Shown here: positions 35,245-39,016 of the stretch, one piece after another
Layout: every line of letters starts with the position of its first letter
Position numbering within the stretch: position 1 is the first letter of the stretch
Assembly: GCA_001464585.1 (NCBI GenBank)
Contig: LNFF01000041.1
Coordinates: forward strand, 1-53,831
Length of the DNA stretch: 53,831 nt
Direction: 5' to 3'
DNA from: Gammaproteobacteria bacterium Ga0077554
Lineage (GTDB): Bacteria > Pseudomonadota > Gammaproteobacteria > Ga0077554 > Ga007554
Made by a program: the position numbers and the translations under genes
The notes under the pieces: model-generated
Database searches by the model: none
Told to the model about the DNA's origin: nothing
The model's input: only the letters and a program-made list of their open reading frames with translations

Positions 35245-36663
35245 TTAATCCTCCAGTATCCAGGTATCTTTGGTTCCGCCACCCTGGGATGAATTGACGA
35301 CTAGCGAGCCCTCAGTCAACGCCACGCGCGTGAGTCCGCCCGGCACCAGACGGATGTCCTTGCCGGATAAAACGAAAGGGCGCAAGTCAACATGCCGTGG
35401 TGCGATACCCGCTTCCACCAGCGTTGGGCAGGTGGACAGCGCCAGCGTCGGCTGTGCGATAAAGCGGGCGGGCGCGGCCAGAATCCGTTCGCGATACGCT
35501 GCAATCTCTGCGGGGGTACTGGTCGGCCCCACCAACATGCCGTAACCACCCGAGCCTTGCACTTCCTTCACCACCAACTCAGGCAAGTGGGCGAGCACGT
35601 ATTTGAGATCTTCTTTTTTGCCGAGGCGCCACGTGGGCACATTGGATAAAATCGGTTTTTCGCCCAGATAAAATTCAATCATGGTCGGCACATACAGATA
35701 GGTAGACTTGTCGTCTGCCACGCCTGTGCCGATGCCGTTGGCCAACGCGACGCCGCCGCTGCGGTAGGCGCTCATCAAACCGGGCACGCCCAGTGTCGAA
35801 TCCACCCGGAACGCCAGCGGATCAAGAAAGTCGTCATCCACCCGCCGATATATCACGTGTACCTGTTGCGGGCCTTCGGTGGTGTGCATGTAGACCTTGT
35901 CAGCATGCACAAACAAATCCTTGCCTTCCACCAGTTCCACGCCCATTTGGCTGGCGAGGAAAGCGTGCTCAAAATAGGCGCTGTTATAGGTGCCGGGCGT
36001 CATCACCACAATCACCGGTTTATCTACATTAGGCGGCGCGGCTTCGAGCAGGGTATGCAGCAGCATCTGCGGATAATGGTTGATGGGCGCCACCGCATGG
36101 CTGGCAAACAGGTCGGGGAAGAGCCGCATCATGGTATTACGGTTTTCCAGCATGTACGACACACCCGACGGGGTGCGCAGGTTGTCTTCCAGCACATAGA
36201 AATCGTTTTCCGCCACCCGCACCAGATCAATCCCAGCGATGTGGGCATACACTTGATTGGGCAAGTCGACACCGCGCATTTCTGGCCGGTACAGGCTATT
36301 TGCCAGCACCTGACGGGCTGGAACCAAGCCCGCTTTAATGATCTGCTGATCGTGATAAATGTCGTGTAAAAACGCATTCAGCGCCCCCACCCGCTGCTTC
36401 AGGCCGCGCTCCAGCAGCGCCCATTCCTGGGCGTCAAAGATGCGTGGAATCACATCGAATGGAATCAGGCGTTCCGCGCTCGCCTCCTCCCCATACACGG
36501 CAAAGGTAATTCCCAGGCGGCGAAACAGCACTTCGGCTTCACGCTGCTTCTGGGAAAGCGCCTCCAGAGGCAAGGAAAATAGCAGTGCGGCTACATCCTG
36601 ATATTGACTGCGCACCAACCCTTCCGGGCTGTGCATTTCATCGAAGAGGGTGACTTTATTCAT
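35245..36663 (-). CDS. circularly permuted ATP-grasp type 2 protein
   Basis: A 472-residue protein of the DUF404/DUF407 (circularly permuted ATP-grasp) family. Recognisable parts are NQVYAHIAGIDLVRVAENDFYVLEDNLRTPSGVSYMLENR, then DKVYMHTTEGPQQVHVIYRRVDDDFLDPL, the ATP-binding ELVVKEVQGSGGYGML, and the ending VVNSSQGGGTKDTW. ATP-grasp enzymes join a carboxylate to an amine; this subfamily is predicted to make a peptide or amide tag, with no experimental substrate known to me. It is the promoter-proximal gene of the six-gene operon. Confidence 0.92.
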   Translation of the reverse strand: MNKVTLFDEMHSPEGLVRSQYQDVAALLFSLPLEALSQKQREAEVLFRRLGITFAVYGEEASAERLIPFDVIPRIFDAQEWALLERGLKQRVGALNAFLHDIYHDQQIIKAGLVPARQVLANSLYRPEMRGVDLPNQVYAHIAGIDLVRVAENDFYVLEDNLRTPSGVSYMLENRNTMMRLFPDLFASHAVAPINHYPQMLLHTLLEAAPPNVDKPVIVVMTPGTYNSAYFEHAFLASQMGVELVEGKDLFVHADKVYMHTTEGPQQVHVIYRRVDDDFLDPLAFRVDSTLGVPGLMSAYRSGGVALANGIGTGVADDKSTYLYVPTMIEFYLGEKPILSNVPTWRLGKKEDLKYVLAHLPELVVKEVQGSGGYGMLVGPTSTPAEIAAYRERILAAPARFIAQPTLALSTCPTLVEAGIAPRHVDLRPFVLSGKDIRLVPGGLTRVALTEGSLVVNSSQGGGTKDTWILED

Positions 36664-36748
36664 GGCCGCACTCTACATTAGGCTGATAGAAGTGCCCTTA
36701 CCGTGTTTGTCTTATTAAAGAATTGCAAGCGCCATGCCAGCCCCATAA

Positions 36749-36776
36749 ATTATATTAAGATATTATTTTTAATGAA
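36749..36776 (-). promoter_or_regulatory. putative promoter of the Anbu operon
   Basis: On the minus strand a perfect TATAAT (plus-strand 36749-36754) is preceded at 16 nt by TTCATT (plus-strand 36771-36776) in a very AT-rich stretch. Transcription would begin about 80 nt before the ATP-grasp start. The -35 is weak. Confidence 0.5.
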
Positions 36777-36935
36777 GTTTTTTGCTTTTTTTATGAAAGC
36801 CGGGGATAGCATGCCCTCCCTTGGGGCATAGACAAAGGATCCACTGCTTTATCGCGTCATTTTAGTGCGGCAATGTCATTCAAGTGATTTCAGATATACA
36901 CCACTTGACCCAATACTGTTCGCTTAATACACTTC

Positions 36936-36974
36936 CCGTTCGCCCGGATGGTTCGATATGCTCACCACGAACGG
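36936..36974. repeat. imperfect palindrome CCGTTCG...CGAACGG
   Basis: CCGTTCG (36936) and CGAACGG (ending 36974) frame a 25-nt centre in which GGTTCGA / CTCACCAC look like parts of a common bacterial hairpin repeat. CCACTTGACC occurs just outside on both sides (36901 and 36994). The whole 36664-37147 gap contains no gene, only this repeat, the minus-strand promoter and the CIRCE element. Confidence 0.5.
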
Positions 36975-37044
36975 CTAAACCGAACCGTATTGCCACTTGA
37001 CCACGAAAAAAATTGGGTTGCGGGTAACGGAACTTTTGAATCCA

Positions 37045-37071
37045 TTAGCACTCTGAGGAAAGGAGTGCTAG
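37045..37071. promoter_or_regulatory. CIRCE element (HrcA operator) upstream of rpoH
   Basis: TTAGCACTC (37045-37053), exactly nine bases, then GAGTGCTAG (37063-37071). The CIRCE consensus is TTAGCACTC-N9-GAGTGCTAA, so 17 of 18 arm bases match and the spacer length is exact. It lies 76 bp before the rpoH start. HrcA represses heat-shock genes such as groESL through this site. A TTGACA follows directly at 37076. The hrcA gene is not in the window. Confidence 0.88.
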
Positions 37072-37147
37072 GATATTGACAGGGAACAAACGATATTCAA
37101 CGCTCTCTAATAATGACATACCGTGAAAGTTCAGGGAGGAACCCAAC

Positions 37148-38017
37148 ATGAGCACCAATATGAGCAAAGGCATGCAACTCGATTTAGTATTGCCCCCGGT
37201 GGGGAGCATTGAAGCTTATACCCAGGCCGTTGCCCGCATCCCGATGCTGAGCGCCGATGAAGAACACGCGCTCGCCATGCGTCTGCGTGATGATAATGAT
37301 CTGGATGCCGCGCGACGGCTGGTTATGTCGCACCTGCGTTTTGTGGTGCATATCGCACGCGGCTACAGTGGTTACGGTTTGCCGCAGGCAGACCTGATTC
37401 AGGAAGGCAATATCGGCCTGATGAAAGCCGTGAAACATTTTGATCCAACCATGAATGTACGCCTGGTGTCGTTTGCGGTGCATTGGGTGCGTGCAGAAAT
37501 GCACGAATTTATTTTACGCAACTGGCGCATTGTCAAAGTCGCCACCACCAAAGCGCAACGCAAATTATTTTTTAATCTGCGCAGCAACAAGAAACATTTG
37601 GGCTGGTTCTCCAATGAAGAGGTCGACACCGTTGCCAAAAAGCTCGGCGTAAGCGCTGACGTCGTGCGCGAAATGGAAATGCGCATGAGCGGCTATGACG
37701 CGTCGTTTGATCCATATGCCGACGACGACGATAGCGAGCATGGCAACTTCGCACCCGCCGCGTACCTGGCGGATGCGCATGCTGATCCCGCCCTACAATT
37801 GGAAGGCAGCAATTGGGAAACCAATAACACCGAAAAATTGGCCCACGCACTCACCGCGCTGGATCAACGCAGCCGCGATATTGTGCAACGCCGCTGGCTG
37901 ACCGATGACAAGGCCACGCTCCACGACTTGGCCGATCAATACCAGGTCTCTGCCGAACGCATTCGCCAACTTGAAAAAAGCGCGATGCAAAAGTTGAAGC
38001 AGGCGCTGGAAGCCTGA
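37148..38017 (+). CDS. rpoH: RNA polymerase sigma-32 factor RpoH
   Basis: A 289-residue heat-shock sigma factor. Region 2 has [24 protein letters not shown] and [16 protein letters not shown]; the RpoH box QRKLFFNLR (137-145) distinguishes it from RpoD and RpoS. Region 4 ends [20 protein letters not shown], the -35-binding helix. GGGAGG lies 9 nt upstream. The leader is 484 bp long from the ATP-grasp gene and holds the CIRCE element. Its normal neighbour ftsX lies 9 kb away. A decayed IS481-type end starts 13 bp after its stop. Confidence 0.96.
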
Positions 38018-38362: not shown

Positions 38363-39016
38363 ATGGGCACAGAGAAACCAAAAATCGCCTGTCTGCCGAA
38401 CGGGCCATATTATTTGCTTAACGATCTGACACCGCGGGTAATCCCAAATATTCAAAAATCTAAAGGCGGCCCTTGTACTACGGTCGCGGGGGTAGCGTTA
38501 TGCCGTTGTGGCGGCTCAAGCAACAAACCCTTTTGTGATGGTACCCACGGAAAAAACGGCTTCTCTGATAAGCGCCTGTCGGACGGGACACTCAACAAAC
38601 GTGATAATTATGTTGGAAAGCAGATTACGATCCATGATAACCGCGGGATTTGTGCCCATGCTGGCCACTGCACGGACAATCTCAGCGCAGTATTTAAGTT
38701 GCGTGAAGAGCCGTGGATTGATCCCGACGGGGTAACAACCCAGGATATTATCAATACAATTAAAAAATGCCCATCGGGAGCGCTTAGTTACACTGTCGAT
38801 AAAGTAGAACATCGCGATCAAGATCGGGAACCGATGGTTACGGTCACAAAGGACGGCCCGTATGCGGTTACCGGTGGTATCGAACTTGTCGATCAGCCGT
38901 CAGGTGAAGGCGCTTCAACGGAACACTATACGCTTTGCCGTTGCGGGGGTTCTAAAAATAAGCCCTTTTGCGATGGAACTCATTGGCACATCGGGTTCAA
39001 GGATGAAAAGAATTAG
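38363..39016 (+). CDS. CDGSH / Fer4-type / CDGSH iron-sulfur protein
   Basis: A 217-residue protein with two CDGSH domains, LCRCGGSSNKPFCDGTH (Cys47, Cys49, Cys58, His62) and LCRCGGSKNKPFCDGTH (Cys192, Cys194, Cys203, His207), each a [2Fe-2S] site with three Cys and one His. Between them is a DUF1271/Fer4_19-like segment with Cys97, Cys103 and Cys136 (GICAHAGHC ... KKCPSGAL). It is soluble with no signal peptide. Function is unknown; electron transfer or cluster transfer is inferred. GGGAG lies about 9 nt before the ATG. Confidence 0.9.
   Translation: MGTEKPKIACLPNGPYYLLNDLTPRVIPNIQKSKGGPCTTVAGVALCRCGGSSNKPFCDGTHGKNGFSDKRLSDGTLNKRDNYVGKQITIHDNRGICAHAGHCTDNLSAVFKLREEPWIDPDGVTTQDIINTIKKCPSGALSYTVDKVEHRDQDREPMVTVTKDGPYAVTGGIELVDQPSGEGASTEHYTLCRCGGSKNKPFCDGTHWHIGFKDEKN

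Follow-up and report, generated by a model that had tools for sequence, protein, structure and literature searches.

Our analysis indicates that in this gammaproteobacterial genome an operator for the repressor HrcA is built into a sigma-E type promoter of rpoH, the gene for the heat-shock sigma factor sigma-32, and that the two probably work together as a gate with two inputs. What we observed directly in the genomes is the operator and the promoter sequence, the register that they share throughout the class, the presence of hrcA, rpoE, rseA and rseB, and the lack of this promoter sequence at the other CIRCE sites; from these we infer HrcA binding, transcription by sigma-E, exclusion of the polymerase and the gate itself. 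The following features of the window, by which we mean the whole 53,831-base stretch of DNA analysed, are relevant.

37029 to 37035, forward strand: sigma-E type -35 element GGAACTT (window sequence, composite match at 37030, conserved offset)
37045 to 37071, forward strand: CIRCE (HrcA operator), TTAGCACTC-N9-GAGTGCTAG (window sequence and pattern scan)
37052 to 37056, forward strand: sigma-E type -10 element TCTGA (window sequence, register statistics)
37060 to 37064, forward strand: predicted sigma-E transcription start, inside CIRCE (placed by the usual -10 to +1 distance)
37133 to 37139, forward strand: AGGGAGG, likely ribosome binding site of rpoH (window sequence)
37148 to 38017, forward strand: rpoH (sigma-32), 289 aa (TIGR02392, 412.5 bits)

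The operator reads TTAGCACTC-TGAGGAAAG-GAGTGCTAG with a spacer of exactly 9 bases and departs from the consensus TTAGCACTC-N9-GAGTGCTAA at a single position, the last base being G for A. Nothing else in the window matches CIRCE with three mismatches or fewer, and the site ends 76 bp before the ATG of rpoH. A chance palindrome was ruled out, as 100 dinucleotide shuffles of the window yielded 0 CIRCE matches. An earlier note on this DNA had called the site a CIRCE element in front of rpoH, and interpreting it as an HrcA operator is sound, the site being of a known kind and the binding predicted. The identity which that note gave to the downstream gene is likewise confirmed, the score of the 289-aa ORF lying well over the TIGR02392 cut-off of 323.1 bits and far above its scores with the RpoS and RpoD models, which rules out that the ORF is something other than rpoH. 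The gene before rpoH is divergent (35245-36663, reverse strand), leaving an intergenic region of 36664-37147, and further along an ORF at 38363-39016 carries two CRCGGS..PFCDGTH motifs and looks like a CDGSH-type iron-sulfur protein.

Overlapping the operator is a perfect sigma-E type promoter, GGAACTT-N16-TCTGA (37029-37056), whose -10 element takes its first two bases from the end of the left CIRCE arm. With its 16-base spacer it fits the pattern for sigma-E (RpoE, ECF02) of GGAACTT, 15-17 bases and TCNNA, and GGAACTT or GGAACATT stands just before the rpoH operator in all eight of the eight genomes of the family to which the window belongs. The genome also encodes the corresponding sigma factor, with rpoE, rseA and rseB in tandem; rpoE scores 324.5 bits against a TIGR02939 cut-off of 236.15 and its neighbours match RseA_N and MucB_RseB.

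The draft genome to which the window belongs, as contig 41, measures 2.9 Mb and is 97% complete. It contains a single hrcA, which scores 213 bits and encodes both PF01628 and the DNA-binding PF03444 domain of HrcA, in the gene order hrcA-grpE-dnaK; there is also one groESL, and one rpoH above the model cut-off. Intact GCACTC-N9-GAGTGC cores occur exactly three times genome-wide, before hrcA, groES and rpoH, and the reversed control pattern for the intact core gave 0 matches in the whole genome. Three further cores with one mismatch were attributed to chance, their count being at the level of the reversed control. Since hrcA is present and intact cores stand only before hrcA, groES and rpoH, control of rpoH by HrcA in this organism is plausible and well supported as a prediction.

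In order to see how widely this arrangement is shared we examined 150 rpoH upstream regions from the class Gammaproteobacteria in the GTDB sense, which includes the former Betaproteobacteria; the regions were picked by rpoH score alone, blind to CIRCE, and the sample covers all but the most divergent rpoH genes. CIRCE was present at up to three mismatches in 119 of the 150, the best sites in the remainder having 5-9 mismatches, so that the distribution is bimodal (0-3 vs 5-9). It preceded 110/118 (93%) of the rpoH genes from genomes bearing hrcA compared with 9/32 of those from genomes in which no hrcA was found, several of these in incomplete MAGs, an association with a Fisher p of 1.7e-13 when kinship is ignored. 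Taking one genome per family the figures were 84/90 with hrcA and 7/17 without. Eight rpoH genes from hrcA-bearing genomes had no CIRCE, and two of these are second copies. Among the named genomes of the RpoH scan the element precedes rpoH in Pseudoalteromonas luteoviolacea, Methylocaldum, Dyella, Pandoraea, Trinickia, Herbaspirillum, Nitrosomonas, Polynucleobacter and Uliginosibacterium, as it does in many MAGs, and was not found before rpoH at the Vibrio, enterobacterial, Haemophilus, Shewanella and Idiomarina loci. The RpoH proteins of named relatives are at most about 70% identical to that of the window.

The arms of the operator are kept among the relatives compared while its spacer varies. 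Xanthomonadaceae-like genomes (L041, L071 and L163, the last being G186) have a changed rpoH operator, roughly TTAGCAGTC-N9-GACTGCTAA, and the alteration of both arms together suggests a shifted HrcA specificity. In L106 and L107 (at about 1385-1450 in both) and similarly L110, with two sister genera represented, the DNA from CIRCE to rpoH contains a TTGAGATAGATCAA-like box of FNR/CRP type and the sequence CTATATA, both of which are absent from the window.

The earlier note had proposed that HrcA represses rpoH, and this stands as a prediction given the presence of hrcA, the three CIRCE sites and the class-wide association, but it was incomplete in that the sigma-E promoter had been missed. 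Because the promoter covered by the operator has the sequence of a sigma-E promoter, the simple cascade of that note is replaced by a putative junction of two stress inputs.

Across the class, promoter and operator keep a fixed register. When 229 class genomes were scanned for GAACTT-N6..10-CIRCE without reference to rpoH, 42 of them contained a match, and the reversed pattern gave 0. Thirty of these loci were opened and rpoH lay directly downstream in 29, the other ending at a contig edge; of the remaining twelve, ten are rpoH by coordinates, in one (G039) a run of N breaks up the rpoH gene, and one (G078) is clpB. In G039 (L290) rpoH is preceded by ftsYEX, a gene order absent in the window, where the promoter is kept all the same. 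In G078 (L289, 2855-2894) the composite of sigma-E promoter and CIRCE stands before clpB, and the rpoH of the same genome has no CIRCE.

Of the 119 CIRCE-bearing rpoH regions, 82 have a GAAC whose first base lies 14-16 nt ahead of CIRCE, with 68 at 15 nt, 11 at 16 nt and 3 at 14 nt, any other single offset accounting for 0-6. The final position of TCNNA falls on the third base of the CIRCE spacer, and 75 of the 82 regions with this GAAC have an A there compared with 17 of the 37 without it. The full pattern GAAC[TC]N-N15..17-TCNNA occurs in 94/119 regions as against 3% of shuffles, its -10 starting exactly at CIRCE base 8 in 73. Nitrosomonas communis (L065) has CIRCE at rpoH with a putative, GGAAACTT-like -35. 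In order to reduce the effect of kinship we took one gene per family (n=91, all CIRCE-bearing), of which 61 are in the register of the window, with a spacer of 16 in 52, 17 in 8 and 15 in one. A second arrangement, in which the sigma-E -10 ends just before CIRCE, is found in 8/91 families; it was seen in G008, G049, G061, G073, G096, G105, G160 and G162, and here the operator covers only the start region. The other 22 family representatives have no sigma-E match in either main register, two of them (G031 and G044) having GAACTT-N16-TCNNA slightly further upstream, and several named Burkholderiales likewise have a CIRCE-bearing rpoH with no such match, which suggests that HrcA control of rpoH does not always come with a sigma-E promoter.

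CIRCE sites before groES and hrcA served as controls. GAAC at the rpoH-type offset was found before 0/15 groES sites and 1/11 hrcA sites, and the third spacer base was A in 1/15 and 3/11 respectively, ruling out GAACTT as a general companion of CIRCE. Most groES sites have CTTGAC or CTTGAA and a TATNA-like stretch that runs up to CIRCE, and TTGACA is often present at the hrcA sites, so that the same operator has been combined with promoters of more than one kind. In some 260 genomes of the phylum the composite was met once outside the class, before groES and with other spacing, and was taken as chance.

We propose that sigma-E RNA polymerase would recognise GGAACTT-N16-TCTGA and that CIRCE would be occupied by an HrcA dimer, which would mask the -10 element and start site and keep the polymerase out. 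Occupation of GroE by unfolded proteins, or unfolding of HrcA itself on heating, would then cause HrcA to leave hrcA-grpE-dnaK, groESL and rpoH together, and with HrcA off rpoH would be transcribed in proportion to active sigma-E, which envelope stress would release through RseA. If HrcA blocks the sigma-E promoter in this manner, full induction of sigma-32 would require both active sigma-E and the loss of HrcA repression, and the gate would shut again once fresh GroE had reactivated HrcA. The HrcA of Campylobacter loses DNA binding on heating and its binding is enhanced by GroE (PMC8533110), behaviour from which the rpoH promoter would be expected to fire fully only with sigma-E active and HrcA off.

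An alternative is that HrcA does repress rpoH but that the promoter concerned is of the ordinary sigma-70 kind, with the resemblance to a sigma-E promoter accidental or of minor importance. This would accommodate the 22/91 families with CIRCE at rpoH and no sigma-E match in the two main registers, and also the hrcA and groES sites, where CIRCE overlaps promoters of sigma-70 or sigma-32 type. We regard it as unlikely, however, given that some 60 families conserve the -35 element, the 16-base spacer and the A completing TCNNA, all in one register, and that a consensus scan of the window region for a sigma-70 promoter near the site gave a chance-level match only. Promoters lying farther upstream may also contribute to rpoH transcription.

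Two other readings concern the repeat itself and both appear far less probable. CIRCE effects in mRNA have been described in Bacillus, and a 9-base inverted repeat in the rpoH transcript could form a hairpin acting on stability or translation if it were wholly transcribed. From the predicted sigma-E start at about 37062, inside CIRCE, the right arm alone would be transcribed, which makes a role in the mRNA instead of as a DNA operator very improbable, and the presence of CIRCE tracks that of hrcA, with operators decaying in hrcA-less genomes (G083, G209). Slightly more improbable still is that the site is a functionless relic, as might be read from its one mismatch in the right arm and from the decayed operators of relatives that have lost hrcA; against this, hrcA is intact in the genome of the window, the arms are kept in relatives whose spacers vary and CIRCE is retained class-wide at the high rate given above where hrcA exists. 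Repression by HrcA at a sigma-E promoter is the reading we prefer.

Lineages in which no hrcA was found bear on the ancestry of this arrangement. In G083 and G209, of one family, GAACTT, the 16-base spacer and TTGGCACTC are kept and the right arm is short of one base; in G081 and G208, of another, the promoter is kept and the operator damaged; at the enterobacterial loci the promoter alone is kept, L031, L035 and L043 having GAACTT-N16-TCTGA at rpoH as in the window type. To our knowledge E. coli has no HrcA. These stages suggest that HrcA control is the older condition and that the P3 promoter of E. coli rpoH may be its remnant, a direction deduced from comparison of present-day sequences. 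We give an even chance to the fuller proposal that rpoH was ancestrally controlled, in this class, by a sigma-E promoter containing an HrcA operator, with P3 left behind after the loss of HrcA and operators now decaying in some hrcA-less lineages, and that most of the class differs from E. coli in that envelope stress would induce the cytosolic heat-shock response only under a shortage of chaperones.

The link between CIRCE and rpoH is not in itself new, having been predicted in 2004 in Geobacter sulfurreducens with CIRCE at -51 of rpoH (Rodionov et al. 2004, PMC545781, Table 8). The HrcA/CIRCE regulon listed there resembles that of the window in its operator, its rpoH target and its groESL and hrcA-grpE-dnaK companions; the part of that report consulted here treats one species and mentions no sigma-E promoter, whereas in the window type the operator overlies a sigma-E type promoter at one constant register throughout the class, and a Geobacteraceae locus (L086), unlike the window, has no GAAC at the rpoH-type offset. 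CIRCE before rpoH may have been reported more widely, in beta-, gamma- and epsilon-proteobacteria, by Permina and Gelfand 2003 (cited in PMC545781), a source outside our open-literature search. The promoter is equally of a known kind, rpoHP3 of E. coli being a sigma-E promoter and SigE of Bordetella transcribing in vitro from the Bordetella rpoH promoter region (PMC3490749). Both rpoHP3 and the Bordetella fam promoter share with the window the type of -35 and -10, the 16-base spacer and the gene, but the DNA around the -10 of enterobacterial rpoH shows no CIRCE, and the Bordetella paper mentions neither HrcA nor CIRCE (PMC3490749). No description of an overlap between sigma-E promoter and CIRCE was found in the open literature, subscription literature being outside its scope, and it is within this searchable literature that the fixed nesting of CIRCE in the sigma-E type promoter across the class appears to be new, its parts being known.

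Control of the heat-shock response is mainly known from E. coli, with sigma-32 and no HrcA, and from B. subtilis, with HrcA and no sigma-32. Most lineages of the class appear to combine both forms of control in a single promoter, to which sigma-E adds a third input. Should this hold, E. coli would be a reduced case and the published sigma-E promoters of rpoH in HrcA-bearing bacteria would need to be read again.
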